26,918 nt of DNA, taken from the IMG/VR virus record IMGVR_UViG_3300015263_000896, positions 1 through 26,918 of that record; one strand, written 5' to 3'. The notes beneath the pieces were generated by a model. That model was not told the DNA's origin, did not search any database, and saw only the letters and a list, made by a program, of their open reading frames with translations. This DNA is from a virus. Made by a program: the position numbers and the translations under genes. Shown here piece after piece: positions 3,001 to 19,019 of this stretch. How positions within the stretch are numbered: position 1 is the first letter of the stretch; the number at the start of each line of letters is the position of its first letter.

Positions 3001-6000
3001 ACGCTCACGGCTGCTGGTACGAGCACTGCGTCGTGGTCTGGAGCGGCAAGCGTAAGTTCATTCCTGCGTGCTGGAAATTGGTTAAATTCAAATCCTGAAT
3101 TTGACTACGGAGACTCAAGCGGATGGTCTCTAGTTGGTGGTGGAACGACAACGATGTCGTTCTCCAACAACCAAATGGTGATCAACAATCCAGACGGTGA
3201 TGGTTTTCCTGCGAGTTCAGTTTTTACAAGTTACTTACAAAAGCAGTATCAAGCAGTTGTTACAGATATCAGTATTGCCAGTCAGTCTGGTGATGGAGCA
3301 TTTTATCCTAATGTAGGTTACAATTTATCACCAGAAACACTTGTTAACTTTATTATTCAAGTTGGATTTGGTGGAACGCCATCATCTGCAACAATTAACT
3401 ACGTTTATCTGCGTCCAGAGCCATGGTTCTATCAAGCATCTTCCACTGTATCTTCTGCCCTGACCTCTGCCGGAACATCGACGGTCTCGTGGGATGCGGC
3501 AGCGACCGTCGATGGCGTGCTGACGGCAGCGGGTACGAGCACGGTTTCGTGGGTTGGAGAAACGGCGGCCGCGACCGTCACAGCAGACTGGTCTGTTGCA
3601 GGCACGTCCACCGTCGCGTGGGACGGTCAGAGCACGGCAGACAGCGATCTGACGGCAGCGGGTACCAGCACCGTCTCGTGGGTCGGGCAAACGACAGATG
3701 TCGCGGAAGGTTGGTTCGGGACTGACGGCACATCCACTGTTTCGTGGGCAGGCGCTTCGACGGCAACAAGCGATCTGACAGCCAGCGGAACAGCTTCTGT
3801 ATCGTGGGATGGCGAAAGCACTGTCGATGGCGTGCTCACAGCCGCAGGCACGAGCACCGTCTCGTGGGATGGCGTAACGCTTGCCCAGACCACGGTAGAC
3901 TGGTCCGTCACCGGCACCAGCACCGTCACATGGGACGGCGAGGCCACCGCATCCAGCGACCTCACCGTCTCCGGCATCGCCAGCGTCTCATGGGTCGGGG
4001 CCACCACGGAAACCGCCGAAGGCTGGTTCGGGGCTGATGGCACTTCGACCGTTACATGGGACGCCGCATCGACGGTTCAGGCGGCCCTCTCGGCCTCTGG
4101 AACAGCAACAGTTTCCTGGGTTGGCACCCAGACGCAGGTCGCAGCGCTGACCATTTCGGCAGCAGCGACAGTAACTTGGGTTGGTGACTCCACAGCAGAC
4201 TCCACACTTACAGTTGCAGGAACGTCCACGGTAGCATGGACGGGCCGCGCGACCAACGAGGGCGAGGGTTGGTTCGGCGCCGATGGCACCTGCACGGTGG
4301 CCTGGACCGGAGAAGCCTCGATCCTCTCCGACTGGACTGCGGCCGGTACGAGCTCCGTCACATGGTACGGCGAGACACTCGGCGTCGAGGTTGCAGCGCT
4401 GACAGCTGCAGGCACCTCGACGGTCTCGTGGACCGGCGAATCCACCGTCGATAGCGATCTGACGATCTCGTGCGTGCCGACCGTTTCGTGGGTTGGCCAG
4501 AGCACCTTCGACAGCACTTGGACCGCCGCAGGCACATCCACCGTGTCGTGGACCGGCATCGAGATCCAGACCGCCGACTGGACAAGCGCAGGCACCGCGA
4601 CGGTTTCGTGGGTTGGAGAACAGGTTGAGGCGGGCACGCTCACGGCGAGCGGCACGTCGACCGTAACGTGGCAGGCCCTGACCGCATTTACAGCCGCGGG
4701 CACGAGCTCGGTGGCGTGGTCAGGCTCTGCCACGACCAGTGCGGACTGGACGGCCGCCGGCACGAGCACAGTAACCTGGGACGGATTGACGACCAATCTG
4801 GCTGAGGGCTGGTTCGGCGCGGATGGCACATCCACCGTGTCGTGGGCCGCCTCGGCCTCGATCATCTCGGATCTCACGGTCTCTGGCACCGGCACCGCCT
4901 CGTGGGTCGGGGCCAGCACAACGGCCAGCACATGGGCCAGCGCAGGCACCGCGACCGTTGCGTGGGATGGCGAGGCAACCGCCTCATCGGACTGGACTTC
5001 TTCCGGGACCAGCACGGTCTCATGGGTCGCCACACAGACCGAAACGGCCACCTGGACGGCCAGCGGAACGGCCAGCATATCGTGGGTTGGCCAGACGACC
5101 GACATCGCCGAGGGGTGGTTCGGGACCGATGGCACGTCAACGGTCACATGGGCGGGCGAAAGCACGGTCACCAGCGATCTCACCAGCGCCGGCACCTCGA
5201 GCGTTACGTGGGATGGCGAAGCGACTGTTGTGGCGGCACTCACGTCTGCCGGAACGAGCTCGGTTACGTGGGATGGCGAGGCGACTATCAGTGCCGACTG
5301 GTCGAGCAGCTCGAGCGCGACCGTAACTTGGGAAGGCCAGCAGATCGAGGCTGGAACACTGACCGCGGCTGGCACCGCGACAGTGACTTGGGACGGCGTC
5401 GAGATCCGCACCGGGACGCTCACCGCGGCCGGCACGGGAACGGCGAGCTGGGTTGGTCTGGCGACGATCGATAGCACCCTGTCGGCAACTGGCATTGCGA
5501 CAGTGGCCTGGGACGGCGCCAGCACCAATCTGGCGGACTGGACCTCGGCCGGCACCTCGACCGTCTCCTGGTATGGCCAAACCCTGGCCGAGAATACCGG
5601 CGTGTGGATGTCCTCGGGCACGGCGACCGTGACTTGGGACGCTGGCAACATCGCGATCCTGTCGGATCTGACGGTGTCCGGCGTGGCCAGCGTCACTTGG
5701 GATGCCGAGGCCAGCGTGCTCTCGGACTGGACGGCCGGCGGATCCGCCACCGTCACATGGGATGCCGGCAACATCACCGTGGACTCGACCTGGACCTCGA
5801 GCGGCACTGCGGCGGTCTCCTGGTTCGGCGTGGAAGTGGCGGCGACCGAGGTGGACTGGTCGTCTACGGGCACAGCCACGGTCTCACCGGTCGGTGCTTC
5901 GGTGGTCACGGCCAGCTTTGCGGCGGCCGGTACGGGCGCGATGGCCAGTGATGGTGAGGCCACAGTCTCATCCACATCGGCCGCCAGTGGATCGAGCTCT

Positions 6001-6291
6001 GTCACGTTCGATGGCGAGTCGACTATTACTGCAACAGTCAATGCGGATGGCACCTCGACGGTGACGTTTGCTGGTGAAAGTTACACGGCAGCGAACTGGA
6101 ATGCGGCGGGTGCCGCAACTGTGAACTGGGTCAAGCGTGAGCCCGATGAGTCCGACTGGCTGTGTACGGGCACAAGTACCTGCACGTGGGTTGGCTCTGG
6201 TGGGCTGGTGGCAGAGGGCGGCATCGACAATATCATCCGCACCTTCTTCGATCAGAAGTGGCAGAAGAGAAGGCAGAAGAGGACCGCATGA
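1..6291 (+). CDS. Giant phage fibre/adhesin-like structural protein, 5'-truncated by the window edge
   Basis: The frame is open from base 1 without a start, so the true gene begins upstream; 2096 residues are visible. The N-terminal ~750 residues contain about twelve ~50-residue units with the core pattern Ile-Asp/Glu-Tyr-Ile-Thr-Ile-Ala-x-x-Gly-Asn-x-x-Asp-Phe-Gly-Asp-Leu followed by Thr-Arg-x-x-x-x-Gly-Gly. This kelch-like propeller pattern is common in phage structural proteins. From nt 2293 it changes to 58 short repeats of the type GTSTVSWDG, interrupted at 3061-3444 by a separate domain. The C-terminus is short and basic. I infer a virion surface fibre or adhesin that binds the host or its glycans. 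No enzymatic motif, chaperone domain or transmembrane segment is seen. The stop codon overlaps the ATG of the downstream sugar dehydratase (ATGA), implying co-translation. The fibre role is inferred from repeat type and genome context, not from a recognised domain name. Confidence 0.75.
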   Translation, partial: ETITTSGSSGSAAFVAGFAYDSVPTAQDNYAAYINSSNSDIYLMGDDGGTTWSDQNSSTAIRAGTVTGISANIYYHHGRRVYAFLYNDSGTVKYDEFDLGYSGGTANTNLTSEGVATGGSPYTTSETAIFAGGVGPRNNIEYVSVATLGNTTDFGDLTDITLRSVGTGSLTRALITGNTAGSNTINYVNYFTWGNGLDFGDLTIDRAPGAVSSKTRSVFMGGLNGPSGENVMDYVTISTTGNAVDFGDLSVPVEYSSNGCQNATRGILSGNGNGYTNTIEYITIATTGNSSDFGDLTQPKGFCGGDSNSTRGIIVAGSLDTTPTTINVLEYFTIATTGNAADYGDLYNGSFYESAGACGTTRALYAGGRTAAGGGTNVISYSPIATLGNSTDFGDLSGGARGALAGTTNAHGGLGLDPEPMWYGRDGELWPVASMHSFGNTGGMALVIGGYINGGNKYSVDSFNIASTGNAADYGDLTTAVSDWETAGSASTSRAVVSPGTAPFDIYYINISSGGNVSSFGDFNSTDIGGAGGLAGNSSLANDTRALFAGSYNVTNTIEYITIASTGNGTDFGDLNNPIYYGSGLASTTRGIIGGGITTGSVDLNVIDYITIASTGDATDFGDLTQARSCSESNSASTTRGIFAGGWINGDTYYNIIDYITIASVGNATDFGDLSVIRGFSAGASSHVRATFSGGAVAGPTLYNNIDYITIATLGDATDFGDLTSACYFAAGVSNAHGGLASPVDTLWYGEEVSGTQTADWTSTGTSTVSWDAGDISITSDLSSSGTATVSWAGAATTASDWTSAGTSTVTWVGEQVETGTVTMAGTSTVSWVGVQVETGTWSSAGTSTVSWDGQSTTASDLTSAGTASVSWVGEATATSDLTVSGTATVTWDGASTAASDLTSAGTSTVSWVGTQVETGTLTAAGTSTVSWAGQSTVDSDLTAAGTSTVSWTGESAALSDLTISGTSTVSWDAAATVDGVLTVAGTSTVSWVGEQVETGTLTAAGTSTASWSGAASVSSFLRAGNWLNSNPEFDYGDSSGWSLVGGGTTTMSFSNNQMVINNPDGDGFPASSVFTSYLQKQYQAVVTDISIASQSGDGAFYPNVGYNLSPETLVNFIIQVGFGGTPSSATINYVYLRPEPWFYQASSTVSSALTSAGTSTVSWDAAATVDGVLTAAGTSTVSWVGETAAATVTADWSVAGTSTVAWDGQSTADSDLTAAGTSTVSWVGQTTDVAEGWFGTDGTSTVSWAGASTATSDLTASGTASVSWDGESTVDGVLTAAGTSTVSWDGVTLAQTTVDWSVTGTSTVTWDGEATASSDLTVSGIASVSWVGATTETAEGWFGADGTSTVTWDAASTVQAALSASGTATVSWVGTQTQVAALTISAAATVTWVGDSTADSTLTVAGTSTVAWTGRATNEGEGWFGADGTCTVAWTGEASILSDWTAAGTSSVTWYGETLGVEVAALTAAGTSTVSWTGESTVDSDLTISCVPTVSWVGQSTFDSTWTAAGTSTVSWTGIEIQTADWTSAGTATVSWVGEQVEAGTLTASGTSTVTWQALTAFTAAGTSSVAWSGSATTSADWTAAGTSTVTWDGLTTNLAEGWFGADGTSTVSWAASASIISDLTVSGTGTASWVGASTTASTWASAGTATVAWDGEATASSDWTSSGTSTVSWVATQTETATWTASGTASISWVGQTTDIAEGWFGTDGTSTVTWAGESTVTSDLTSAGTSSVTWDGEATVVAALTSAGTSSVTWDGEATISADWSSSSSATVTWEGQQIEAGTLTAAGTATVTWDGVEIRTGTLTAAGTGTASWVGLATIDSTLSATGIATVAWDGASTNLADWTSAGTSTVSWYGQTLAENTGVWMSSGTATVTWDAGNIAILSDLTVSGVASVTWDAEASVLSDWTAGGSATVTWDAGNITVDSTWTSSGTAAVSWFGVEVAATEVDWSSTGTATVSPVGASVVTASFAAAGTGAMASDGEATVSSTSAASGSSSVTFDGESTITATVNADGTSTVTFAGESYTAANWNAAGAATVNWVKREPDESDWLCTGTSTCTWVGSGGLVAEGGIDNIIRTFFDQKWQKRRQKRTA
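295..1290 (+). repeat. Kelch-like blade repeats, block 1 (about 6 blades)
   Basis: Six DFGDL/DYGDL units recur about every 50 residues, each preceded by a Tyr-x-x-Ile/Val-x-T-x-GN strand and followed by a Thr-Arg turn and a GG strand. The block closes with NAHGGL then a WYG motif at about 1225-1270. A 6- or 7-bladed propeller is likely if the preceding degenerate unit (YSGGTANTNL) counts as a blade. The DNA is AT-richer than the downstream repeat array. Confidence 0.7.
1318..2250 (+). repeat. Kelch-like blade repeats, block 2 (about 6 blades)
   Basis: A second set of six FGDL/FGDF/DYGDL units has the same ~50-residue period. It ends with the same closing signature as block 1: NAHGGL and then a WYG motif at about 2203-2250. 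The two blocks therefore look like a tandem domain duplication rather than one continuous array. Confidence 0.7.
2293..6200 (+). repeat. 58-copy ~20-residue Thr/Ser/Trp repeat array
   Basis: Reading the protein gives 58 units with consensus Gly-Thr-Ser-Thr-Val-Ser/Thr-Trp-x-Gly followed by a variable Glu/Ser/Thr stretch and Ser-Asp-Leu/Trp-Thr-x-x. Most units are 20 residues. Several 22-residue variants carry AEGWFGAD or AEGWFGTD (for example near 3700, 4020, 4260, 4800 and 5110). The last five or six units lose the invariant Trp (SPVG, ASDG, TFDG). The strand-turn-strand pattern suggests a beta-rich shaft. The array is interrupted at 3061-3444. Confidence 0.85.
3061..3444 (+). other. Carbohydrate-binding-like domain inserted within the repeat array
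   Basis: After repeat 13 the reading frame enters about 128 residues with no repeat motif, then returns to repeat 14. The insert begins NWLNSNPEFDYGDSSGWSL, the usual opening of jelly-roll carbohydrate-binding modules found in phage fibres, and ends with a YVYLRPEPWFYQ strand. Its DNA is visibly AT-richer than the flanking repeats. It is in frame and translated. The domain type is inferred from pattern only. Confidence 0.55.
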
Positions 6292-7154
6292 CATCCTATC
6301 TCGTGACCGGGGGCACGGGTTCGTTCGGGCGGGCGTTTGTCAAACGCCTGCTTTACCCTGAAGTGACGGATTCAATCTCGCTTTATGCCGAGCGCGTGTG
6401 TGTGTTCTCGCGTGGAGAGCATACCCAAGCCCAGATGCGCGCTGATCTGAGGGATGACAAGTATCTCCGCTTCCTGATCGGCGATGTCCGCGACAAGGAC
6501 CGCCTGCGCCGCGCCATGACCGGCGTCGACGTGGTCGTTCATGCCGCAGCGCTCAAGAGGATCGAGGTGGGTGCCTATAACCCGGTCGAGATGGTCAAGA
6601 CCAATATCGACGGAGCGATCAATGTCATCGAAGCTGCCCAGGATGCCGGGGTCGGCCGCGTGGTCGCTCTCAGCACGGATAAGGCTTACGCCCCCGTTAG
6701 CCCCTACGGTGCCAGCAAGGCGCTCGCCGAGAGCCTCTTCCTCGCGGCCCAGAACACGGTCGGCGCGCATGGCCCTAAATTTGCGGTCTGCCGCTATGGC
6801 AATGTCTGGTGCAGCAACGGTAGCGTGGTGCCCAAGTGGCGACAGCTCCTGGCAAGCGGCGCTGAGACGGTGCCTGTGACGGACCCGGAATGCACACGGT
6901 TCTTCATGACGCTCGATCAGGCGGTTGATCTGGTGCTCGATACGATCGTCACCATGAAAGGCGGCGAGCTGCGCGTGCCGGACCTGCCAGCCTACCGGCT
7001 CGGGGATCTCGCCGAGGCCATGGGCGCCAAGATCGATGTCCTCGGCCTGCCGGCCTGGGAAAAGCGCCACGAGAACATGGATGACGGGCATTGCTCGGCG
7101 GATGCACCGCGCATGTCGATCGATGAGCTCCGCAAGGCTCTGGAGGCTGCATGA
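6288..7154 (+). CDS. pseB: UDP-N-acetylglucosamine 4,6-dehydratase-like (PseB/FlaA1 type)
   Basis: This is a 288-residue SDR-superfamily enzyme. PseB makes a UDP-4-keto-6-deoxy-hexosamine from UDP-GlcNAc, the first committed step of pseudaminic acid synthesis. Visible motifs: Rossmann TGGTGSFG (residues 7-14); GDVRD; the family signature HAAALKRIEVGAYNPVE with KTNI (84-105); catalytic STDK (128-131); YGASK with Tyr139 and Lys143; and YGNVWCSNGSVVP followed by TDPECTRFFMT. The start at 6288 overlaps the fibre stop (ATGA) and puts the Rossmann loop at the N-terminus, so an upstream in-frame start at 6162 is rejected. At 288 residues it is shorter than the usual ~330, with the loss in the C-terminal half. 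An inverting (Pse) rather than retaining (Leg) stereochemistry is likely but not certain. Confidence 0.88.
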   Translation: MTSYLVTGGTGSFGRAFVKRLLYPEVTDSISLYAERVCVFSRGEHTQAQMRADLRDDKYLRFLIGDVRDKDRLRRAMTGVDVVVHAAALKRIEVGAYNPVEMVKTNIDGAINVIEAAQDAGVGRVVALSTDKAYAPVSPYGASKALAESLFLAAQNTVGAHGPKFAVCRYGNVWCSNGSVVPKWRQLLASGAETVPVTDPECTRFFMTLDQAVDLVLDTIVTMKGGELRVPDLPAYRLGDLAEAMGAKIDVLGLPAWEKRHENMDDGHCSADAPRMSIDELRKALEAA

Positions 7155-7792
7155 ACGCGCACCGTGTCACAGAAGAATTTGAGAACGCCGTTGCCAAATA
7201 TACTGGCGCGCCCTACGCGATCGCCACGACCTCGTGCACCATGGCCATCTTCTTGTCCCTGCAATGGATCAAGTCCACAGGTCGCCTGCCAGACGTGATC
7301 GGTTGCCCCCGGCGGACCTACGTGTCCGTGCCCATGCAAATCGTCCACGTGGGCGCCAAGATCCATTTCCAGGACTATGTCTGGAAGGGCTTCTATCGAC
7401 TCGGGCCGACACCGATCATCGACAGCGCGAGGCTATTCACCAGCGGTATGTTCGTGCCCGGGTCCATGATGTGCACCAGCCACCACTGGGGCAAGACGCT
7501 CGGCATTCAGCAGGGCGGCTGCATTCTCACCAGCGACTCCGAGGCGGCCGGCTGGCTCAGACGGGCCCGCTTCGATGGACGCACCCCCGGGGTGCCGCCC
7601 AAGTTCGATCGCTTCCAGATCGGCTGGCACGCCTACATGAGTCCTGAAGTGGCCGCCGAGGGTCTGATGCGCCTGTCGCTGCTGCCCGAGCACAACGATC
7701 CGCTGGACAGCGACGAATACCCGGATTTATCGAAGGCCGAGGTGTTCCAGCCCTACATGATCAAAGCAAATCATCTTAGTGTGGTCGAATGA
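7151..7792 (+). CDS. Short DegT/DnrJ/EryC1-family sugar aminotransferase (PseC-like)
   Basis: The protein of 213 residues resembles PLP-dependent nucleotide-sugar aminotransferases, which add the C4 amino group after PseB. It opens with FENAVAKYTGAPYAIATTSCT, matching the family's opening helix and cofactor-phosphate region. It then has a PxxTYVSVP strand, VGAKIHFQD and a PIIDSAR segment in place of the PLP-contacting Asp region. HHWGKTLGIQQGG follows, in which Lys115 aligns with the Schiff-base lysine before the conserved Gly-Gly. Usual family length is about 370-390 residues, so roughly 40% is missing, mainly from the small C-terminal domain. The frame is clean and coupled on both sides by ATGA overlaps, which argues for a genuine miniature form rather than decay. 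Activity is unproven. Confidence 0.75.
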   Translation: MNAHRVTEEFENAVAKYTGAPYAIATTSCTMAIFLSLQWIKSTGRLPDVIGCPRRTYVSVPMQIVHVGAKIHFQDYVWKGFYRLGPTPIIDSARLFTSGMFVPGSMMCTSHHWGKTLGIQQGGCILTSDSEAAGWLRRARFDGRTPGVPPKFDRFQIGWHAYMSPEVAAEGLMRLSLLPEHNDPLDSDEYPDLSKAEVFQPYMIKANHLSVVE

Positions 7793-8484
7793 AAACCGCA
7801 GTCATCATCCAAGCGCGCTTGGGCTCGAGCCGGCTTCCAGCCAAGATCCTGCTTCCGCTGCCGACAGGACGCACGGTTCTGGAAGAGGTGCTCCAGCGTT
7901 GCTACCAGATACCTGATGTAGATCGCATCGTGATCGCAACGCCTGAAAAAGATCTCGACATCATCTCTGAATACGCAGTCTTTGTTGCTGATCTCGATGG
8001 CTATGCTTCTACAATAGAAAGGGCCGACTATGTCGGCGGTTCAGAACATAATGTCCTGGCGCGCTATTACAAAGCCGCTTGCCGGGTCAATGCCGATACG
8101 ATTATGAGGATTACGGCAGACTGCCCGCTGATCGATCCGGCTGTGTGCTTTGGGGTTCTATGCCTGCATAAGGTTTCAGGCGCCCATTACACCTCGAACA
8201 TCTGGCCAAAACGCCACCATCCCGCAGGCTATGACTGCGAGGTTTTCTCGATGGAAGCTCTGGCCGCAGCGCACTATACCGAGAACAAGACACTGGATGA
8301 GATGGAGCACGTAACGCCGCTCATCCGGTCATATGCTCTGATGAAGGGCAAAGCTGTCCAGTTCAAACCACCTCCAGGCGAGGTGATAGACCAGAGGCCA
8401 CGCACGCTCGACACACTCGAGGACTACCGCCACATCTGGGGGATGATGGAAGATGAAATTGGTGATGGTCGCACGGCGGCCTGA
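7789..8484 (+). CDS. SpsF/PseF-like cytidylyltransferase family protein
   Basis: The 231-residue protein starts with VIIQARLGSSRLPAKILLPL, the nucleotide-binding signature of the SpsF branch of sugar cytidylyltransferases. It continues with DRIVIATPEKDLD and RITADCPLID (Asp111 for metal binding). Further motifs are an SNIWPKR...PAGYDCEVFS segment and EHVTPLI. SpsF/PseF enzymes activate nonulosonic acids to CMP-sugars or are encoded with such pathways. It overlaps the aminotransferase stop by ATGA and overlaps the next gene by 32 bases. Its place after a PseB/PseC pair matches canonical pse operons. Length is close to the family norm of ~230-250. Confidence 0.85.
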   Translation: MKTAVIIQARLGSSRLPAKILLPLPTGRTVLEEVLQRCYQIPDVDRIVIATPEKDLDIISEYAVFVADLDGYASTIERADYVGGSEHNVLARYYKAACRVNADTIMRITADCPLIDPAVCFGVLCLHKVSGAHYTSNIWPKRHHPAGYDCEVFSMEALAAAHYTENKTLDEMEHVTPLIRSYALMKGKAVQFKPPPGEVIDQRPRTLDTLEDYRHIWGMMEDEIGDGRTAA

Positions 8485-8908
8485 TGCCGTCCGACACCTT
8501 TATGACCTGCTCTGCGAGCGCACGCCAGAGCAATCGATCTCGCATCGCAAGATGCCGAGCATGTCCCAGCATCGTGCCTTTGTCGAATCCCACCCCTACC
8601 AATACTGGGCGCTGGTTGAGGTCGACGGAACGGTGGTCGGATCCGTCTATCTGACGCGCGCCAACGAGATCGGCATCGCGATCTACAAGAAACACCGCGG
8701 CAAGGGCTACGGCCCCGAGGCGGTGCGCATGCTCATGGAGTACATGGGGCCGCGTGAATATCTGGCCAACGTCAATCCGCTCAACGAGGCAAGCGCGCGG
8801 ATGTTCAAGAAGTTAGGATTTGCGGTTTGCCAGCACACATACAGGCTGGATCATGAAGATCAACGACGTCAACATCGGACCAAACAGGTCGCCGTACATC
8901 ATCGCTGA
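8453..8908 (+). CDS. GNAT-family N-acetyltransferase (PseH-like)
   Basis: The protein has 151 residues with a GNAT fold pattern. It shows a YWALVEVDGTVVGSVYL core strand pair, then EIGIAIYKKHRGKGYG with the acetyl-CoA loop RGKGYG (82-87). A conserved NPLNEASARMFKKLGF ending follows. PseH acetylates the 4-amino sugar in the pseudaminic acid pathway, and this gene sits in the pseH position before the NeuB/PseI-like gene. It overlaps the preceding cytidylyltransferase by 32 bases and the following synthase by 56 bases. The Arg/His-rich tail (RRQHRTKQVAVHHR) lies in that overlap and is probably a by-product of compression. Substrate is inferred from context. Confidence 0.82.
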   Translation: MKLVMVARRPDAVRHLYDLLCERTPEQSISHRKMPSMSQHRAFVESHPYQYWALVEVDGTVVGSVYLTRANEIGIAIYKKHRGKGYGPEAVRMLMEYMGPREYLANVNPLNEASARMFKKLGFAVCQHTYRLDHEDQRRQHRTKQVAVHHR

Positions 8909-9704
8909 GATGTCCGCAAACCATTGCGGTGATCTCGAGCGGGCCTTGCGCATCATCGATGAGGCCGAGAAGGCCGGCTGCGATGCGGTCAAGATCCAGG
9001 TCTATGACCCTTACCGCCTTGCCAAGGCGCGCGGCGGGCCGGACCGGATCGTGCTGGGCGGGCCGTGGGCCGGCCGCAAGCTGATCGACATCTACTCTGA
9101 AGGGGCAACGCACTACGACTGGCTACCGGAGCTCTTCGATTTCGCCGCCCAGATCGGCATCACGCTGTTCCCGTCGGTCTTCGATCTGCAGTCGATCGAG
9201 ATGCTCGAGTCGCTCGATGCGCCGGCCTACAAGGTCTCGTCGTTCGACCTGACCAACACCAAGCTTCTCGAGGCGCTGAAGGATACCGGCAAGCCTCTGA
9301 TCCTGTCCACCGGGATGGCCACCAACGCCGAGGTGCAAGAGGCTCTGAAGATCGTCGGGCTCTTCAACGTCGGCCTGCTGCATTGCGTATCGGTCTATCC
9401 CTGCCCGATCGATCAGGCCAACCTGAACCGCATGCAGGATCTCTTGACCCTGGCCAATGGGTTTACGGTGATCGGCTACTCGGATCACACCAACGGCGTG
9501 ATCGCACCGATCGCCGCCGCGGCGCTTGGCGCTGAGATTATTGAAAAGCATTTCACGCTTGACGATCGACCGACGCTCGATTCGTCCTTCTCGGTCTGTC
9601 CCCTCGGGATGGCAGGCCTCGTCGCAGGTGTGCGTATGGCATGGGCGGCGTGCCAGCAAGCTGAGGCGGACGACCCGCACCGCAACCTGCGGGTCATATC
9701 ATAG
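8853..9704 (+). CDS. N-acetylneuraminate/pseudaminic acid synthase (NeuB/PseI family)
   Basis: NeuB-family enzymes condense phosphoenolpyruvate with a 6-carbon amino sugar to give a 9-carbon nonulosonic acid. The 283 residues carry the TIM-barrel motifs in order: PYIIAEMSANHCGD (15-27), DAVKIQ with Lys47, FPSVFD (106-111) and YKVSSFDLTN (126-135). These are followed by LILSTGM, LLHCVSVYP (175-183), GYSDHT (208-213) and LGAEIIEKHFTLD (225-237). I chose ATG 8853 because MKIND leads directly into the barrel; an in-frame ATG at 8820 would only add a tail inside the GNAT gene. The family is usually ~340-350 residues with a C-terminal SAF/antifreeze-like domain, and that domain is absent here. It could be NeuB, PseI or LegI; PseI is favoured by neighbours. 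Confidence 0.9.
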   Translation: MKINDVNIGPNRSPYIIAEMSANHCGDLERALRIIDEAEKAGCDAVKIQVYDPYRLAKARGGPDRIVLGGPWAGRKLIDIYSEGATHYDWLPELFDFAAQIGITLFPSVFDLQSIEMLESLDAPAYKVSSFDLTNTKLLEALKDTGKPLILSTGMATNAEVQEALKIVGLFNVGLLHCVSVYPCPIDQANLNRMQDLLTLANGFTVIGYSDHTNGVIAPIAAAALGAEIIEKHFTLDDRPTLDSSFSVCPLGMAGLVAGVRMAWAACQQAEADDPHRNLRVIS

Positions 9705-9717
9705 GCAGGAGATAACG

Positions 9718-9861
9718 ATGCCGAAGGGTAGCAAAGTCGGACGCTGCTACGACGATCTGAAGAAGTCCATGCCCAAGGGCAAGGCCGCAGCCATCTGCCA
9801 GAAGAGCACAGGCCAGTCCCTCAAGACCGGCAAGGCTCCGAAGGGAGGACGCGGGCGGTGA
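9718..9861 (+). CDS. 47-residue Lys/Gly-rich basic protein
   Basis: This very small, strongly basic protein begins MPKGSKVGRCYDDLKKSMPKG and contains AICQKSTGQS. A pattern of this kind (KVGRC, then AICQ-S/T-S/T) recurs as a small domain in phage structural regions. A strong ribosome site (GGCAGGAGAT, 13-base gap after the synthase stop) supports independent translation. Its stop overlaps the GTG of the methyltransferase (GTGA). No catalytic residues are visible. It could bind nucleic acid or be a minor virion component. It is an odd insert among sugar enzymes. Confidence 0.7.
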   Translation: MPKGSKVGRCYDDLKKSMPKGKAAAICQKSTGQSLKTGKAPKGGRGR

Positions 9862-10436
9862 GCGAGCAATTCTGGGCAGGAGACTTCGGCAAGCAGTACA
9901 CCGCACGCAATCGCGTGCAGTGGTCGCAGCGCGTCCCGTTCTGGCAGGGCATCATCGAGTCCCGGCCGCTCTGGCCGCACAACATCCTAGAGGTCGGCTG
10001 CAACGCCGGATGGAATCTCAATGCCATCCGCCACGTCGACCCCAACATCGAGCTCGTCGGTGTCGATGTCTGCCCCGAGGCGGTCGATGAGGCGGCCGCG
10101 GCCGGTCACGACGTCTATGTGATGCCGGCAAGCCAGCTCGAGAACCTCGAGGAAACCTTCGACATCGTGTTCACGGCCGGCGTGCTGATCCACGTGCCGC
10201 CCCATGAGCTCGATGGCGTGATGGATGCCATCATCGCAGCCTCGCACCGCGACGTGCTGGCGATCGAGTACGCAGCCGATCAAGAAGAAGCGGTCGAGTA
10301 CCGCGGTCATTCTGACAAGCTGTGGCGCCGTCCGTTCGGCGCGCTCTACGAGGCCAAGGGCCTGACGCTCGTTGAGACCGGCAATGCCGGACCGGGCTTC
10401 GATCGCTGCACCTACTGGCTGATGAGGAAACCATGA
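9858..10436 (+). CDS. Class I SAM-dependent methyltransferase, pseudaminic-acid-biosynthesis-associated type
   Basis: The 192-residue protein has SAM motif I ILEVGCNAGWNLNAI (43-57) and the ribose-contacting acidic residue at VGVDVCPEAV (Asp70). The post-I/II region is FDIVFTAGVLIHVPP, and it starts EQFWAGDFGKQYTARN. This overall pattern matches the methylase family found in pseudaminic acid gene clusters, which is assumed to O- or N-methylate the sugar. The start is GTG at 9858 overlapping the previous stop; the stop overlaps the amidotransferase start (ATGA). The exact methyl acceptor cannot be read from sequence. Confidence 0.83.
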   Translation: MSEQFWAGDFGKQYTARNRVQWSQRVPFWQGIIESRPLWPHNILEVGCNAGWNLNAIRHVDPNIELVGVDVCPEAVDEAAAAGHDVYVMPASQLENLEETFDIVFTAGVLIHVPPHELDGVMDAIIAASHRDVLAIEYAADQEEAVEYRGHSDKLWRRPFGALYEAKGLTLVETGNAGPGFDRCTYWLMRKP

Positions 10437-11554
10437 CGCTGATCAGATGCAATTCCTGCGTCTATCCGACCACCAAGCCGGATCTCCTGTTCGAGGACGG
10501 CGAATGTGCAGCGTGCCGCAACTACCGCAACCGTCCGGCCGTGGACTGGGCGGCTCGTTACAAGGAGCTCCAGGATATTCTGGCGCGCGCCCGTCCCAAC
10601 AAGGACGGCTTCAACTGCATCGTCCCCTCGAGCGGCGGCAAGGACTCTACGGCCCAGGTGATGACGCTCATCGACCTGGGCGCCAAGCCGCTCGTGGTGA
10701 CCGCAACGACCTGCTACCTGACCCCCATGGGCAGGGCCAACATCGATAATCTGGCCAGACATGCCAAAACCATCGAATACGATCCAGATATCAAAACCAG
10801 AGCCACGCTCAACAGACTGGGCCTTGAGCTGGTGGGGGATATCTCATGGCCCGAGCACGCGGCCATCTTCAGTGTGCCGTTCAGAGCCGCCGTCGAACAC
10901 GATATTCCGCTGGTCTTCTACGGGGAAAACCCCCAGCGCGAATACGGCGGTCCGCTGGATGCGCATGAAGCCCTGACCATGACCCGGCGATGGGTCTCGG
11001 AGTTCGGTGGCCTGCTCGGCCTGCGGTCCGATGATTTCGTTGGCATGGACGGCATCACGGCGGCCGACATGGAATACTACCGCCTGCCCGACGAGGCCGA
11101 TATGGCATGGATCGAGGCCTACTTCCTCGGCCAGTTTCTGCCGTGGTCGAGCGGGGCCAATGCACGCCGCGCGATCGCCGCCGGCCTCGAATATTATCTG
11201 CCATCGCCAGCCAACTACTGGCCTTGGGAGAACCTCGACAACGCGATGACCGGCCTGCACGACCATGCCATGTACCGCAAGTATGGCTATGGCCGCCTCG
11301 CGGCACAGGTCTCCGTCGAGGTCCGCGAGCTGTGCATGTCGCGCCAGACGGCGCTCAACCTGTGCAGAACCAGCGATGGTCTCTTTCCAGAGACCTATGC
11401 CGGCGTGCCTCTCGAGGCCGTCCTGGAGCATCTGGGCGTGACCAGGGGGTGGTTGATCGAGCAGCTCGACAATCACACGTCGTGGGAGCTCTTCAACGGC
11501 GTCGAGGCCGATCGACCGCTCCTCAAAGAGGAGGCGCTTCAGGCGGCTGAATAA
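10433..11554 (+). CDS. N-acetyl sugar amidotransferase (PseA/WbpG/LegA-like)
   Basis: This 373-residue ATP-pyrophosphatase-family enzyme opens with a cysteine knuckle (Cys6, Cys9, Cys25, Cys28) with the spacing CNSCVYP...GECAAC typical of this family. The PP-loop SSGGKDST (66-73) binds ATP. The rest (HAKTIEYDPD, VFYGENPQREYGG, WPWENLDNAMTGLHD, YGYGR) follows the family pattern. Such enzymes convert an acetamido group to an acetamidino group in Pse/Leg or O-antigen sugars. Ammonia comes from a HisH-like glutaminase through a HisF-like partner. A HisF-like gene lies two genes downstream, while a HisH-like gene is not in the window. It overlaps its neighbours by ATGA upstream and TAATG downstream. 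Length is normal. Confidence 0.88.
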   Translation: MTLIRCNSCVYPTTKPDLLFEDGECAACRNYRNRPAVDWAARYKELQDILARARPNKDGFNCIVPSSGGKDSTAQVMTLIDLGAKPLVVTATTCYLTPMGRANIDNLARHAKTIEYDPDIKTRATLNRLGLELVGDISWPEHAAIFSVPFRAAVEHDIPLVFYGENPQREYGGPLDAHEALTMTRRWVSEFGGLLGLRSDDFVGMDGITAADMEYYRLPDEADMAWIEAYFLGQFLPWSSGANARRAIAAGLEYYLPSPANYWPWENLDNAMTGLHDHAMYRKYGYGRLAAQVSVEVRELCMSRQTALNLCRTSDGLFPETYAGVPLEAVLEHLGVTRGWLIEQLDNHTSWELFNGVEADRPLLKEEALQAAE

Positions 11555-12204
11555 TGCACCTCGTCGTTGGAACACCGATGTACGGCGGCCTGTGCTGCTC
11601 GGAATACGTCAAGAGCCTGCTGCAGCTCCAGTCACACCTGGAGAGCAACGGGCATCGCCTGACGACCATCTTTGTCGGCAACGAAAGTCTCGTGCCGCGC
11701 GCGCGCAACAAGATCGCGCGGCTCTTCCTGGAGAAGACGCTGGACGCCAGCCATCTGCTCTTCATGGATGCCGACCAGGAGTTTTCTGTTGGATCCGTCA
11801 TGAAGATGTTGACCGAGGACAAGGACATCATGGACCGGGTGCGGCGCGCGGTCGAAAAAGGGGTTGTCGAGCTGGAGTCCATGACCGGTATCTTCAACGT
11901 CGTGCCCCTCGAGGATGAGCAGGTTGGCTCAGATCCGTTCCGGGTCAAATACGCCGGCAGCGGGTTCATGCTGATACGTCGCTCGGCCTTCGACAAGATC
12001 AAGGCAAGGGTCGAGTCCTATTCGGATCGCGGCGAGCACACCTACAATTTCTTCACGCAAGCCGTTCATGGCGACGAGCTGCTCAGTGAAGACTTCAACT
12101 TCTGCAGGCTCTATGGCGGCCATGGCCGCGTTGCAATTAGAGGCTATGGATGCTGGCCAGTAGGATCATCCCTGTGGTGCTCATGCGCGGACAGCAGGCC
12201 GTGA
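11554..12204 (+). CDS. Phage GT-A-type glycosyltransferase, C-terminally shortened
   Basis: The protein is 216 residues long. It shows the phage glycosyltransferase pattern VVGTPMYGG (4-12), SLLQLQSHLESNGH, NESLVPRARNKIARLFL (43-59) and the metal-binding HLLFMDADQEF (67-77, DAD motif). Later come YAGSGFMLIRRSAFDKI and SEDFNFCRLYGG. It would transfer a sugar from a nucleotide donor. Whether the donor is the CMP-sugar made by this cassette is inference. The last ~20 residues (after CRLYGG) do not look like the usual ending and lie in a 55-base overlap with the HisF-like gene, so the C-terminus may be cut short or replaced. Its start overlaps the upstream stop (TAATG). Confidence 0.75.
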   Translation: MHLVVGTPMYGGLCCSEYVKSLLQLQSHLESNGHRLTTIFVGNESLVPRARNKIARLFLEKTLDASHLLFMDADQEFSVGSVMKMLTEDKDIMDRVRRAVEKGVVELESMTGIFNVVPLEDEQVGSDPFRVKYAGSGFMLIRRSAFDKIKARVESYSDRGEHTYNFFTQAVHGDELLSEDFNFCRLYGGHGRVAIRGYGCWPVGSSLWCSCADSRP

Positions 12205-12917
12205 AGGGCCAGAGGTTTGAGTCGTGGCGAAATGTGGGTCAGGTGCGCATGACGGTGCGCGTGCATCAAGCGAGGAACGTCGATGAACTGGTTCTCCTGG
12301 ACATTTCTGGGCATCCTCCCGACTGTGGTTTTATACGCAGTCTTGCTGGCGATTGCTTCTTCCCACTCACCGTGGGGGGTGGGGTCCGGGACGTGGACAC
12401 TCTCGTCGCCCTTCTTGCAAACGGGGCCGACAAAGTATCACTGAATACAGCAGCGGTAGGCCGGCCGTCGCTGATCACCGAGGCGGCCTCAAAGGTCGGG
12501 GCACAATCGGTGGTCGTAGCGATGGACATCAAAGATGGACTACTGCACACCCATAACGGACGACGAAATACAGGACTTGAAGCAGTTGCTTGGGCGCGAC
12601 GTGTCCAGGAGCTCGGCGCCGGAGAAATCCTGCTCACCTCCGTGGAACGCGACGGAACGCTTGAAGGCTACGACCTCGATCTTATCGAACGGGTCAGTCG
12701 AGCCGTCTCCATTCCTGTCGTGGCTGCAGGTGGAGCTGGAACCTATCGAGACCTAGCACAAGGACTCGAGGCTGGTGCCCACGCTGTGGCAGCGGGCGCC
12801 ATGTGGTGCTTTACGGATCAAACCCCGCCAGGGGCAGCAGAATATCTCTACCGAAAGGGGTACACCGTCAGACACAGGCTCCCAGTGCCAGAGCCTCAAC
12901 CGGTTTGTATCGCGTAG
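12150..12917 (+). CDS. HisF-like amidotransferase subunit (HisF2/WbpI-region type)
   Basis: This 255-residue (beta/alpha)8 protein has the HisF layout: RIIPVVLMRGQQAVKG at the N-terminus, VDELVLLDISG, FPLTVGGGVR (71-80), NGADKVSLNTAAV (91-103), VVVAMDIKDG (121-130), GAGEILLTSVERDG, and VSIPVVAAGGAGT. In histidine-pathway HisF the first strand reads IIPCLDV with a catalytic Asp. Here that position is Leu, as in HisF-like partners of nucleotide-sugar amidotransferases. The later Asp126 is kept. The likely role is handing ammonia to the amidotransferase two genes upstream. The start at 12150 has an AGAGG element ahead and overlaps the glycosyltransferase by 55 bases. It is the last gene before a terminator. 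Confidence 0.85.
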   Translation: MLASRIIPVVLMRGQQAVKGQRFESWRNVGQVRMTVRVHQARNVDELVLLDISGHPPDCGFIRSLAGDCFFPLTVGGGVRDVDTLVALLANGADKVSLNTAAVGRPSLITEAASKVGAQSVVVAMDIKDGLLHTHNGRRNTGLEAVAWARRVQELGAGEILLTSVERDGTLEGYDLDLIERVSRAVSIPVVAAGGAGTYRDLAQGLEAGAHAVAAGAMWCFTDQTPPGAAEYLYRKGYTVRHRLPVPEPQPVCIA

Positions 12918-12984: not shown

Positions 12985-13428
12985 ATGGCACTATCTAAAT
13001 GGGCCGATAAGATCCTGACGAGCATCCACGGACGCCGGCTGGGTCTGGACGACAAAGGGTTCTTGGTCGGCACCCCCGGCACACGTCACCCTGTCGAAAC
13101 GGTAACGACGGCCAGCACGCTCGCCGATAGCGGTGTGTCGGTCATCAATTCAGGGTCCGCTCTGGACTTCACGCTTGCCGCACCACCTTACGTCGGCTGC
13201 GAGAAGGTCGTGATCAATGCCTCCACCTACGCCAATACGGTCGTTCGATCTACGGCTAACGGCGCCTGCTCGATCTACGCTTCGACCGGCACGGACCAGG
13301 AAGGCGTTAAGGTCACGTTCGCGGCCTCTGTGCGGCCTTCGCTCCATCTGATCGGCATCACCACCGACCAGTGGGCGGCGGTCAATTCCGCTTCGACGGT
13401 CTACTGGTCCGTCTCAACCTCTTCGTAA
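12985..13428 (+). CDS. Small phage structural-type protein (head fibre/decoration-like)
   Basis: The protein has 147 residues starting MALSKWADKIL. A strong ribosome site (AAGGAGATCACC) precedes ATG 12985, so the longer in-frame opening at 12775, which lies inside the HisF-like gene, is rejected. The middle part (TLADSGVSVINSG, FTLAAPPYVGCEKVVIN) and the end (HLIGITTDQWAAVNS) form short beta strands rich in Ser, Thr and Ala. Small phage proteins of this style are common next to structural genes. No enzymatic motif is present. It is a single-gene unit between two terminators. A virion decoration role is inference. Confidence 0.7.
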   Translation: MALSKWADKILTSIHGRRLGLDDKGFLVGTPGTRHPVETVTTASTLADSGVSVINSGSALDFTLAAPPYVGCEKVVINASTYANTVVRSTANGACSIYASTGTDQEGVKVTFAASVRPSLHLIGITTDQWAAVNSASTVYWSVSTSS

Positions 13429-13488: not shown

Positions 13489-14361
13489 ATGAAAATCGCA
13501 CTCATCGGCAGCGCCCCTTCCAGCGCACGTCTCGCACCTTATGCGGACCCTGAATGGAAGATCTGGGCCTGCTCACCGGGATCAATCCAGTATTTCAAGC
13601 GCACGCCGGACGCCTTCTTTGAGCTCCACCGCTGGGAGCCCGAGCGGTCTTGGTTTTGCATCAATTACCGCACGTGGTTGGCGAACGCGACGTGCCCCGT
13701 CTACATGATCGATCCGATCCAAGCCGTGCCGGCCTCGATCGCCTATCCCAAGGACGAGATGGTGCGCAAGTTCGGACCGTGGTTCTTCACCTCGAGCCTG
13801 TCCTGGATGTTCGCGCTCGCGATCCATCAAGGGGCGACCGAGATCGGCCTGTGGGGCGTGGATATGAGCGCTCAAGAAGAGTGGGAATTTCAGCGCTCTG
13901 GCTGTCATTTCTTCATCGCTCTGGCCCGCGAGATGGGCATCAAAGTCACCATCCCGCACGAGTCTGATCTGCTGCGTCCGCCGCCGTTTTACGGATTTCG
14001 CGAAGTAGACCCCATGCACATCAAGCTGGTGGCGCGCAACGAGGAGCTCACCGCAAAGATCCGCGAGGCCGAGCAGAAGATACAGGCCGCGCGCGATGAG
14101 GCCATGTTCTACAAGGGCGCGCTGGACGCGAATTTGTATACCATCAAGACCTGGGTCGGCGACGGTCTGGCCCTGCAGATGGCCTACACCAACCCAGCGC
14201 AAAAGCCCGACAAGATCCTGATGGCGGCCGCTGAGGTCGAGGCAAGCGCCGCCAAGGTCGCGGACGCGGTCGCGGCCAAGGCCGAGGCCAAGGTTCCAAC
14301 CAAGACGAAAAAGGTTCGCAGCAAGCGCCGTGTGAATGGAGCGGTCCATGCCGAAGCCTAA
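13489..14361 (+). CDS. Conserved phage protein with Rossmann-like N-terminus, function unknown
   Basis: The 290-residue protein begins MKIALIGSAPSSARLAPY, a glycine-rich beta-alpha turn. It continues with WKIWACSPG, FFELHRWEP, CPVYMID, WFFTSSLSWMFALAIHQGATEIGLWGVDM and GIKVTIPHESDLL. Proteins with this pattern occur in many podovirus-like genomes and resemble the MptE-like/DUF115 fold that also forms the core of Maf glycosyltransferases; that link is tentative. Residues ~185-215 look like a coiled coil (Glu/Lys/Ala-rich). The C-terminus is very basic (KTKKVRSKRR). Its end overlaps the start of the small terminase gene by 14 bases. I do not assign an activity. Confidence 0.75.
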   Translation: MKIALIGSAPSSARLAPYADPEWKIWACSPGSIQYFKRTPDAFFELHRWEPERSWFCINYRTWLANATCPVYMIDPIQAVPASIAYPKDEMVRKFGPWFFTSSLSWMFALAIHQGATEIGLWGVDMSAQEEWEFQRSGCHFFIALAREMGIKVTIPHESDLLRPPPFYGFREVDPMHIKLVARNEELTAKIREAEQKIQAARDEAMFYKGALDANLYTIKTWVGDGLALQMAYTNPAQKPDKILMAAAEVEASAAKVADAVAAKAEAKVPTKTKKVRSKRRVNGAVHAEA

Positions 14362-14908
14362 GACGAAACCCAAAAAGAGGGGCAGGCCGAGCGTCTATAC
14401 CAAGGCGCTCGGCGACGAGATCTGCGATCGGTTGGCTGCAGGCGAAAGCCTGCGGTCGATCTGCAAGGATACCCACATGCCGGACGAAAAGGCGGTCCGC
14501 CTGTGGGCGCTCAAGCCAGATCATCCTTTCGCCGTCCACTACGCCGCGGCCCGCGAGGCCGGCTACCTGTCGATGGCCGAGGAAATGCTCGAGATCGCCG
14601 ACGATGGCAGCAACGATTGGATGACGCGCGAAGGCAAGGACGGCGAGCTGTCATGGCAGCTCAATGGCGAGCATGTGCAGCGCTCGCGCCTGCGCGTTGA
14701 ATCCCGCAAGTGGATGCTGACCAAGATGCTGCCGAAGGTGTTCGGCGAGAAGGTCGTCAACGAGATGACCGGAGCCGATGGTGGCCCCATCAAGACAGAG
14801 GCCGTCGATGACCTGGAATCGGCACGGCGCGTTGCGTTCTTGCTGGGCACAGCCGTGACCGCGGCCAAGCAAAGAGCGAAGGCGAAAAAAGATGAGCCTT
14901 CTGAGTGA
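14348..14908 (+). CDS. terS: Terminase small subunit
   Basis: The protein has 186 residues. It starts with a basic AT-hook-like MPKPKTKPKKRGRPS, followed by a helix-turn-helix region (EICDRLAAGESLRSICKD...AVRLWALKPDHPF). Next come YAAAREAGYLSMAEEMLEIAD, SRLRVESRKWMLTKMLPKVFG and a basic tail. This is the small-terminase pattern for packaging-site recognition. ATG 14348 is preferred over in-frame ATG 14336 because GGAG sits 6 bases before it. It overlaps the large-subunit gene by 17 bases. Confidence 0.85.
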   Translation: MPKPKTKPKKRGRPSVYTKALGDEICDRLAAGESLRSICKDTHMPDEKAVRLWALKPDHPFAVHYAAAREAGYLSMAEEMLEIADDGSNDWMTREGKDGELSWQLNGEHVQRSRLRVESRKWMLTKMLPKVFGEKVVNEMTGADGGPIKTEAVDDLESARRVAFLLGTAVTAAKQRAKAKKDEPSE

Positions 14909-16502
14909 GATCCAAGAGCAGCTCAACGCGCTGCCGGACGACAAACGCAAAGAGGTTCTCGATCGCGCCGACAAGCATGCAGAGGGCAAGCTGTGGATCC
15001 CCAACCCGGGACCGCAGCTCGAGGCCTATCTCAGCCCAGCAGATGTGCTGCTCTATGGCGGCCAGGGCGGTGGCGGCAAGTCGGATCTTGGCTTGGGCCT
15101 CGCGTTCACCCAGTTCACCCGATCGCTGGTCATGCGCCGCCGCTATACCGAGCTCACGGGCCTCACAGATCGCGCGCTCCAGATCAATGGATCGCGCAAG
15201 GGCTACAGCGGCTCGCCGCCGCCGAGCCTGCGCACAGCAGACGGGAGACTGATCCAGTTCGCCGCCAACCAGCTTCTGGGTGACGAGCAGAGCTGGCAGG
15301 GCAACCCGTTCAGCTACAAATATTTCGATGAAGCCTGTCAGTTCCTCGAGCTGCAGATCCGCTTCCACTTGGGCTGGCTGCGTGATGCCAGCGGCGGCCG
15401 CACCCGCGCGGTGCTGGGCACCAACCCGCCGGTCGATGCCGATGGCGATTGGATCATCGGCATGTTCCGGCCCTGGCTGGATCTGACGCACCATCACCCA
15501 GCCGAGCATGGCGAATTGCGCTGGTACGTTTCGGTCCCGGATCCGCAGGATCCAAAGAAAATCATGGATATCGAGATCGAGGAGAGGGATCTCGGCAACG
15601 ACGAGCATGGGCGCCATCCCGTGCAGCGCGATGGCCAGACGCTCTACGCCAAGAGCCGCACGTTCATACCCGCGGCTTTGTCTGATAACCCGTACCTGAT
15701 CAGGACGAACTATCAGGCAGAGCTCGACGCATTGCCAGAGCCGATCCGGTCCGCCGTGCGTGACGGTAATTTCATGGCGGCGCGTGCTGACGCTGAATTT
15801 CAAGTGATCCCAACACAGTGGGTCATCGAGGCGCAAAGCCGCTGGACATCGGATGGATGGAGGGACTTCGCCATGACGGCGATGGCCGTCGATCCGGCCG
15901 GCGGCGGCGCGGACGCCGAAGAAATTGTTGCGCGCCACGGACCTTGGTTTGGTCAGCCGATCACGACCCAAGGTGATCAAACAGCAGACGGCTCGACCAC
16001 GGCCGGCCGCATCATCAAGCACAGGCGCAACAATGCGCCGGTCGTCGTGGATGTCGGTGGCGGCTACGGCGGCGCTGTCTGCCTGCGCCTGCGTGACAAC
16101 ATGATCGCACACACGCCCTTCAACGGCGCCAACAAGACCGGTCAGAAGACGCTCGATCGCACGCTGTCGTTCGTCAACAAGCGCGCTGAGGCGTGGTGGA
16201 GGTTCCGTGAGGCGCTCGACCCGGATCAGGAAGGTGGGAGCCCGATCGCGCTTCCGCCCGATGCCGAGCTGCGCTCTGACCTGACGGCGCCGACGTTCAC
16301 GGTGACCGCCAACGGCATCAAGCTGGAAGAGAAGATCAAGATCCGCGATCGCATCGGCCGCTCTCCCGGCAAGGGAGACGCAACTGTCATGTGTTGGTCG
16401 GCGCAAGAAGGGGTCGTGCGTAGGCTGCAAGCCAAGTCAACAGGCAACCGCCCGAGCTACTCGAACGTCGGGTATTCGCACATGAAAAGAGGACGACGCT
16501 AA
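14892..16502 (+). CDS. terL: Terminase large subunit
   Basis: This 536-residue DNA-packaging ATPase/nuclease carries the following motifs. Walker A is GGQGGGGKS (56-64), the adenine/R-rich strand is VMRRRYTEL, Walker B is KYFDEA (143-148), and the coupling motif is GTNPP (176-180). The C-terminal RNase H-like nuclease shows MAVDPAGGGAD (Asp334), VVVDVGGGYGG (Asp387) and a late KGDATVM acidic site. The length and motif order are complete, so this is an intact motor. It couples ATP use to genome packaging through the portal encoded three genes later. Confidence 0.93.
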   Translation: MSLLSEIQEQLNALPDDKRKEVLDRADKHAEGKLWIPNPGPQLEAYLSPADVLLYGGQGGGGKSDLGLGLAFTQFTRSLVMRRRYTELTGLTDRALQINGSRKGYSGSPPPSLRTADGRLIQFAANQLLGDEQSWQGNPFSYKYFDEACQFLELQIRFHLGWLRDASGGRTRAVLGTNPPVDADGDWIIGMFRPWLDLTHHHPAEHGELRWYVSVPDPQDPKKIMDIEIEERDLGNDEHGRHPVQRDGQTLYAKSRTFIPAALSDNPYLIRTNYQAELDALPEPIRSAVRDGNFMAARADAEFQVIPTQWVIEAQSRWTSDGWRDFAMTAMAVDPAGGGADAEEIVARHGPWFGQPITTQGDQTADGSTTAGRIIKHRRNNAPVVVDVGGGYGGAVCLRLRDNMIAHTPFNGANKTGQKTLDRTLSFVNKRAEAWWRFREALDPDQEGGSPIALPPDAELRSDLTAPTFTVTANGIKLEEKIKIRDRIGRSPGKGDATVMCWSAQEGVVRRLQAKSTGNRPSYSNVGYSHMKRGRR

Positions 16503-18708: not shown

Positions 18709-19019
18709 AGTGGATCCCAAAAGCACACCCCTACGAGCCTGCTGTATGGGATGACGACATAGTCTTTGCGTTCCGGTCGTTCGTGGCCGGAAAGGCCAAC
18801 GAAGGCCAGCAGGCGCTTGTGTGGAAGTACATCCAGTACGTGTGTGGAGTCGGCGAGTACACAGATATGTCCTGGCGTCCAGGCGGTCTGGAAGGCGATC
18901 GCGAGACCAGCTTTGCTGAAGGCAAGCGGTTCGTCGGTCTGCAGTTGTTGAAACTCAACCACCCCGATGTGCTGGAGGCAATCGAGCGCGACCGGGATAA
19001 AACCAGAGGCAAAAGATGA
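18705..19019 (+). CDS. Bbp19-like small phage protein
   Basis: The protein has 104 residues. It shows VFAFRSFVAGKANEGQQALVWKYIQ, then a Gly-Glu-Tyr segment and ETSFAEGKRFVGLQLLKLNHPDV. The S-F-AEG-KR-x-VGLQLL ending is characteristic of a small protein family found between connector and scaffold genes in podoviruses. ATGA overlaps link it to the portal upstream and the scaffold downstream. The role is unknown, presumably head assembly. Confidence 0.7.
   Translation: MKWIPKAHPYEPAVWDDDIVFAFRSFVAGKANEGQQALVWKYIQYVCGVGEYTDMSWRPGGLEGDRETSFAEGKRFVGLQLLKLNHPDVLEAIERDRDKTRGKR

Follow-up and report, generated by a model that had tools for sequence, protein, structure and literature searches.

A pseudaminic-type nonulosonic acid gene cassette without PseG or HisH in a lineage of uncultured podoviruses

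Results

Organization of the cassette

The window analysed here is the whole of IMG/VR virus record IMGVR_UViG_3300015263_000896 (26,918 bases), and our view of this viral genome is confined to that span. Nine sugar-related open reading frames (ORFs) lie on its plus strand at 6288–12917, overlapping or adjacent to one another, between a repeat-containing ORF and the packaging genes. A sequence-only reading of the same DNA had proposed that these nine genes form one unit, and profile searches bore this out, matching them to the expected families far above chance. The unit begins with a PseB-type, 5-inverting UDP-N-acetylglucosamine (UDP-GlcNAc) 4,6-dehydratase of 288 residues (6288–7154; TIGR03589), a compact PseC/DegT-type pyridoxal phosphate (PLP) aminotransferase of 213 residues (7151–7792; PF01041), and an SpsF-type cytidylyltransferase that is presumed to be a cytidine monophosphate (CMP)-nonulosonate synthetase (7789–8484; PF02348). 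These are followed by a GNAT N-acetyltransferase of 151 residues at the PseH position (8453–8908; PF13302) and PseI, a pseudaminic acid (Pse) synthase of 283 residues (8853–9704; TIGR03586). A basic ORF of 47 residues (9718–9861, plus strand) separates pseI from the tailoring genes, which encode a Pse-associated S-adenosylmethionine-dependent methyltransferase (9858–10436; TIGR03587), a WbuX/PseA-type N-acetyl sugar amidotransferase (10433–11554; TIGR03573), a GT-A-like protein (11554–12204; phrog_1574 and, weakly, PF00535), and a WbuZ/HisF-type ammonia-channelling subunit (12150–12917; TIGR03572).

Four-base overlaps join PseB to PseC (7151–7154), PseC to the cytidylyltransferase (7789–7792), the 47-residue ORF to the methylase (9858–9861), and the methylase to WbuX (10433–10436), a pattern expected of a translationally coupled operon. 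The methylase and WbuX score above the curated cut-offs of their models; PseB, PseI, and WbuZ are clear best matches to theirs, yet fall below them. A chance or misannotated cassette is ruled out by E-values down to 1e-91 and by 77 related loci. The weakest call is the GT-A-like protein, which matches PF00535 below the cut-off (E 0.013) and phrog_1574, a family of unknown function, with an E of 9e-24. It was not found in the 12 relatives checked first. Its gene is 65 bases shorter than in the otherwise near-identical record L213 (L213:1-290), with an altered C-terminus, and may therefore be truncated in the record of the window.

Enzymes of the core pathway

PseB matches TIGR03589 with an E of 5e-91 and 305 bits, compared with 65 bits for LegB, and lies under the curated cut-off. 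Its C-terminus is shortened, and Asp131, Lys132, and Tyr140 are invariant in nine viral copies. When nine viral PseB sequences were combined in a profile, the best PDB match was the UDP-GlcNAc C6 dehydratase 2gn4, Helicobacter pylori PseB (342 bits), with the CapE group at 289 bits or less. PseI matches TIGR03586 with an E of 2e-77, again under the curated cut-off, and retains the catalytic Lys and His residues. The corresponding profile for PseI, built from eleven viral sequences, is closest to the Pse synthase 8h2c (352 bits), followed by SpsE (241 bits) and the sialic acid synthases (about 200 bits; 203). The PseI of the window lacks the C-terminal SAF domain, and the C-terminus is also short in six of the 55 relatives measured. 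The PseB and PseI profiles both lie closest to structures of the Pse pathway, and by wide margins, which supports a cassette of the pseudaminic type.

The cytidylyltransferase of the window matches PF02348 (E 4e-16) and is of the SpsF type, not a PseF equivalog. In three relatives that were tested, the enzyme is instead of the PseF type (TIGR03584, 152–154 bits, with the next-best models at 49–69), and the related locus L012 carries the SpsF type. By ORF clustering of 78 loci, the PseF-type enzyme occurs in 47 and the SpsF-type enzyme in 21. The exchange of these two types within one module independently supports the activation of a nonulosonate with CMP. Of the enzyme names given in the sequence-only reading, those of PseF and PseH require amendment, the former to an SpsF-type enzyme and the latter to a GNAT protein placed by position only.

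Compact aminotransferase and acetyltransferase

The PseC-like protein matches PF01041 with an E of 2e-14, and the PseC and LegC models tie for it (30.9 and 30.2 bits). Viral copies, which were extracted within a size window of 180–260 residues, are 196–248 residues long, compared with about 370 residues for full-length DegT enzymes. The PLP residues Asp91 and Lys115 are invariant in 51 viral copies. In the AlphaFold2 model (predicted local distance difference test score, pLDDT, 95), approximately 195–206 residues align with full-length DegT enzymes at Z scores from 18 up to 20.8, including 18.7 for H. pylori PseC (2fn6). A simple C-terminal truncation is ruled out, since the alignment covers nearly the whole DegT fold; as modelled, the fold is compacted throughout, not cut.

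Relatives of this protein are largely viral. One viral scan confirmed 497, whereas 84,980 cellular genomes, scanned with the same alignment and slightly different patterns, yielded two. One of the two, L154, is a short contig carrying a viral-type cassette; the other, L155, is an Arcicella contig with bacterial genes, in which the compact DegT protein (L155:2431-3057) stands among ordinary bacterial genes as a rare cellular copy of a mostly viral family. Cultured Flavobacterium and Synechococcus phages encode distant short homologues (195–214 residues) under automatically assigned names. This compact aminotransferase family with invariant PLP residues is newly described here. Neither it, nor the missing SAF domain of PseI, nor the Maf/Cst-II-fold neighbour discussed below had been mentioned in the sequence-only reading.

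The GNAT protein matches PF13302 (E 1e-13) but was not hit by the PseH model at an E of 0.01, so that it is called PseH by position only.

Tailoring genes and the missing glutaminase

The methylase belongs to the Pse-associated family TIGR03587 (E 3e-37) and adjoins WbuX in many loci. PtmH, a methyltransferase for an acetamidino legionaminic acid derivative, is known in Campylobacter coli (PMC13317340). WbuX matches TIGR03573 with an E of 7e-63, and its PP-loop motif SGGKDS and four Cys residues are invariant. In one related cassette, WbuX is split into two ORFs (L013:9995-11115), reflecting either a broken gene or a sequence error, and an ORF adjoining it shows sulfotransferase-like motifs by eye (L013:8886-9998), which suggests further tailoring by sulfation.

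TIGR03572 is the best model for the WbuZ/HisF-type subunit (E 4e-70). In all 11 viral HisF sequences compared, the cyclase residue Asp11 is replaced by Leu, and Arg5, Glu46, Lys95, and Glu159 are kept. These four residues, of which Lys95 and Glu159 correspond to Lys99 and Glu167 of HisF, are those that gate the passage of ammonia where HisF meets HisH. The partner glutaminase HisH was not found in the window, and its model TIGR01855 matched in none of 50 related records of at least 31 kb; HisH-like genes occur only in three distant loci (L012, L061, and L062). The invariance of the gate residues fits the use of a host HisH, and on this sequence evidence it is plausible that the phage borrows the host protein.

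Recurrence among viral relatives

A search with a WbuX alignment found 77 viral IMG/VR loci that contain WbuX together with most of the module, and the proteins of these relatives are mostly about 40–60% identical to those of the window. Clustering of the ORFs in the 78 loci, including the window, recovered WbuX in 78, HisF in 77, the methylase in 70, PseI and the GNAT protein in 62 each, PseC in 56, and PseB in 55. Where both flanks were long enough, as in 28 loci, none of the eight enzymes is rare: each was recovered from 25–28 of these loci. The commonest order is pseB-pseC-pseF-methylase-wbuX-hisF-GNAT(pseH)-pseI, followed by a gene of the 12985–13428 type, the transferase-like gene, and the terminase. 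The canonical Pse gene order that the sequence-only reading had emphasized is thus real in the window but incidental, since the commonest viral order places methylase-wbuX-hisF before pseH-pseI. Because the module stays together in other lineages and in other gene orders, it appears to be kept as a functional set, beyond inherited synteny. HNH-endonuclease-like ORFs, recognized by eye, are inserted among the sugar genes of two relatives (L002:12812-13381 and L013:11755-12246).

In a search for cultured relatives among 50,697 phage records, WbuX had no match and PseI had three distant matches only. Neither WbuX nor any other cassette gene was found in L157, an 85%-related record of 50 kb that begins just upstream of the terminase region.

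Absence of PseG across the lineage

The UDP-sugar hydrolase PseG, which stands between acetylation and condensation in the Pse pathway, is absent from the window by TIGR03590. The sequence-only reading had reported neither PseG nor HisH in this stretch, and the finding extends to the lineage: the 50 related records of at least 31 kb contain no PseG and no match to its C-terminal Pfam domain PF04101, while NeuB, the positive control, was found in 48 of them. The PseG and HisH searches do detect both proteins in control genomes. As IMG/VR records may be incomplete, both gaps hold for the lineage and not for each genome; accordingly, a fragment artefact is ruled out for the lineage by the 0/50 counts, though not for the individual genome of the window. 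A divergent GT-B protein acting as PseG is ruled out by the absence of PF04101 from the 50 records together with the lack of a leftover near-universal ORF cluster, and a fusion of PseG to the GNAT protein is ruled out by the length of the latter (131–151 residues). The absence of PseG from the whole lineage is described here for the first time.

A candidate host order is suggested by L154, whose contig was binned in a Thiobacillaceae metagenome-assembled genome. Of 150 genomes that were sampled from this order, 26 contain a PseG above the cut-off. Supply by the host is therefore possible, yet it would limit these phages to Pse-making hosts.

The neighbour at 13489–14361

Downstream of the cassette lie a small conserved phage protein (12985–13428, plus strand), which holds this same intermediate position in many relatives, and then the transferase-like gene (13489–14361, plus strand). 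The product of the latter has no Pfam or PHROG match, and its sequence profile found no significant PDB relative, sialyltransferases included. Its AlphaFold2 model (pLDDT 86) resembles the central domain of Maf and the GT42 enzyme Cst-II, with the fold shared by residues 1–164. In Foldseek, CstII was the top match (E 2e-5) and the best ten were all Cst-II; in VIA-align, the top match was Magnetospirillum Maf (5mu5; Z 12.0, root-mean-square deviation 2.8 over 151 residues), and Cst-II reached a Z of 10.3. Maf proteins attach nonulosonates to flagellin, and their central domain resembles Cst-II (PMC11339370). Unlike Maf, the viral protein lacks the N- and C-terminal domains and shows no significant sequence similarity.

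The gene is strongly linked to the cassette within the lineage. Twenty loci extend for 9 kb or more upstream of it; most or all of the cassette is present in 18 of them, L176 carries GNAT and PseI only, and L162 carries none of it. A strict tie is ruled out by L160, L162, and the Microcystis phage Mvi-Yong1342-1, in which a homologue adjoins the terminase without the cassette; neither PseI nor WbuX was found in the complete genome of the Microcystis phage. This retention by the terminase in phages without nonulosonate genes nearby would also be expected of a packaging-associated or other nucleotide-binding protein of the same fold. Thiamine pyrophosphokinase (Z 10.8) and HPPK (Z 10.7) score close to Maf and Cst-II, and the missing sequence match to sialyltransferases points the same way, against which stand the uniform Cst-II list of Foldseek, the Maf top match of VIA-align, and the linkage to the cassette. 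We consider the chances of such a non-transferase function to be even. The protein is nevertheless the best candidate for the nonulosonate transferase, and its recognition as a conserved neighbour with a model similar to the Maf and Cst-II nonulosonate transferases is new here.

Genomic context

Upstream, a very large fibre- or adhesin-like ORF with an open 5′ end (1–6291, plus strand) directly precedes pseB with a four-base overlap. It contains about 48 GTSTVSW-type repeats, and Ser and Thr make up 34% of the repeat part. This protein could be a possible acceptor of the glycan.

The packaging and head module occupies the window from 14336 onward, with the cassette just upstream. It comprises, on the plus strand, the terminase small (14336–14908) and large (14892–16502) subunits, identified by PHROG matches (phrog_1482 and phrog_979 for the pair), the portal or head-tail connector (16957–18708), a scaffold-like protein (19016–20005), the major capsid protein (20283–21146), and a tail protein (22041–22673). 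The placement of a Pse-type pathway with genes for acetamidino and methyl tailoring inside a late, structural region, as noted in the sequence-only reading, is supported. The closest isolates by terminase, at 36–41% identity, include phages that infect Acidovorax, Limnohabitans, Caulobacter, and Bordetella (BPP-1), and the phage carrying the cassette is an uncultured BPP-1/T7-like podovirus. A tail gene pair (22677–23345 and 23102–26917 in the window) is duplicated in tandem, with diverged copies, in the close relatives L211 (L211:3-8371) and L213 (L213:10766-17637). Another close relative has a tyrosine-recombinase-like ORF on the minus strand (L212:15538-16101, by eye), which suggests a temperate life style.

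Discussion

We consider it probable that the cassette provides a viral route to a CMP-activated pseudaminic-type acid, tailored with an acetamidino and probably also a methyl group, for which HisH and perhaps PseG come from the host. The sequences establish which genes are present, that their catalytic residues are conserved, that the module recurs, and that PseG and HisH are missing across the lineage; the product, its completion by the host, the acceptor, and the benefit to the phage are inferred. Each step is assigned by family membership. PseB would dehydrate and invert UDP-GlcNAc, the compact PseC would aminate the product at C4, and the GNAT protein would acetylate the amino sugar. A host PseG, the UDP-sugar hydrolase not encoded by the phage, would release the sugar, PseI would condense the freed sugar with phosphoenolpyruvate, and the SpsF-type enzyme (PseF-type elsewhere) would add CMP. 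The acetamidino group would be introduced by WbuX and WbuZ/HisF, with ammonia from a host HisH, and methylation of the sugar would probably fall to the methylase encoded alongside. A transferase, for which the Maf/Cst-II-fold protein by the terminase is the best candidate, would then deliver the sugar to a surface acceptor on the virion or the host.

Several observations weigh against this scheme. PseG was above the cut-off in only a minority of the candidate-order genomes, and the loss of a central step from a whole lineage would be odd if the phage merely speeded up a host pathway. The PseC and GNAT assignments rest on position and fold, with PseC tied to LegC and GNAT missing the PseH model, and the transferase-like gene also stands by the terminase in phages without the cassette. 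The host dependence put forward in the sequence-only reading divides into two parts. It is plausible for HisH, with the gate kept and Asp11 lost in HisF; for PseG, no comparable clue is found, and borrowing from the host is less certain.

It is also possible, though we favour it less than not, that the cassette does no more than raise the output of a host nonulosonate and tailor it anew, altering the cell surface, for example to block superinfection, and not the virion. The two missing proteins, PseG and HisH, are the ones to be expected from a host that makes Pse, and a Campylobacter phage protein binds 7-acetamidino-Pse on flagella (PMC7099621). However, nearly all steps of the pathway are carried, beyond the needs of tailoring, and the location in the late/packaging region beside the transferase-fold gene, seen in 18–19 of the 20 well-flanked loci, suits modification of the virion.

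A PseG-independent route appears unlikely. An unrecognized viral or general host hydrolase, or an altered substrate in the compact enzymes, would then make a host Pse pathway unnecessary. Such a route would account for the absence of PseG across differing gene orders while NeuB is nearly always found, for the scarcity of PseG in the candidate host order, and for the unusual compactness of several enzymes. Nevertheless, there is no other near-universal cluster, and no leftover hydrolase candidate of approximately 250–300 residues except the transferase-fold neighbour. A different product, such as a legionaminic-like nonulosonate or a 4-amino sugar, is suggested by the PseC/LegC tie and the SpsF-type cytidylyltransferase but is similarly unlikely in view of the PseB scores, the 110-bit lead of Pse synthase for PseI, the PseF enzymes of relatives, and a methylase above the cut-off of its Pse-associated family. 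We regard as more improbable still an old, widespread phage lineage with its own compact, PseG-free CMP-nonulosonate pathway by a new route and a Maf-like transferase that decorates virions with acetamidino-pseudaminic acid.

Compared with known systems, the pathway that we favour shares with the CMP-Pse pathway of Helicobacter and Campylobacter (PseB, C, H, G, I, and F, with PseA and Maf transferases) the PseB and PseI relatives, the tailoring genes, the pseB-pseC order, and, in viral relatives, PseF. It differs in being virus-borne and without PseG throughout the lineage, and, in the window, in its compact PseC, shortened PseB, SAF-less PseI, and SpsF-type cytidylyltransferase. Since PseG was searched for and not found, we class the cassette as a PseG-less viral variant that would function in the manner of a canonical Pse pathway, not as such a pathway itself. 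From the WbuX-WbuY-WbuZ (PseA-HisH-HisF) module it has kept WbuX, with the PP-loop and four Cys residues, and a WbuZ that has lost Asp11 and kept the gate, whereas HisH (WbuY) is missing except in three distant loci. Its aminotransferase has the fold of the DegT/DnrJ/EryC1/StrS enzymes, such as ArnB and PseC (Z 18–21), with the PLP-binding Lys and the Asp in about 200 instead of about 370 residues.

No report of a viral Pse cassette was encountered in the literature searched, which left most subscription papers and all preprints outside its scope. A review names pseI alone among the viral auxiliary genes of ocean viromes (PMC6359870); here, in contrast, a near-complete, recurrent pathway with tailoring genes is found in an uncultured podovirus lineage.

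If active, the aminotransferase family of about 200 residues would interest enzymologists as a minimal form of PLP-dependent sugar aminotransferase. The PseG gap poses a sharp question, namely, whether these phages depend on Pse-making hosts or follow a PseG-free route. Nonulosonic acids are surface sugars involved in recognition between bacteria and phages. That viruses repeatedly carry a module to make and tailor such an acid suggests that some phages rewrite the surface of their host or their own.

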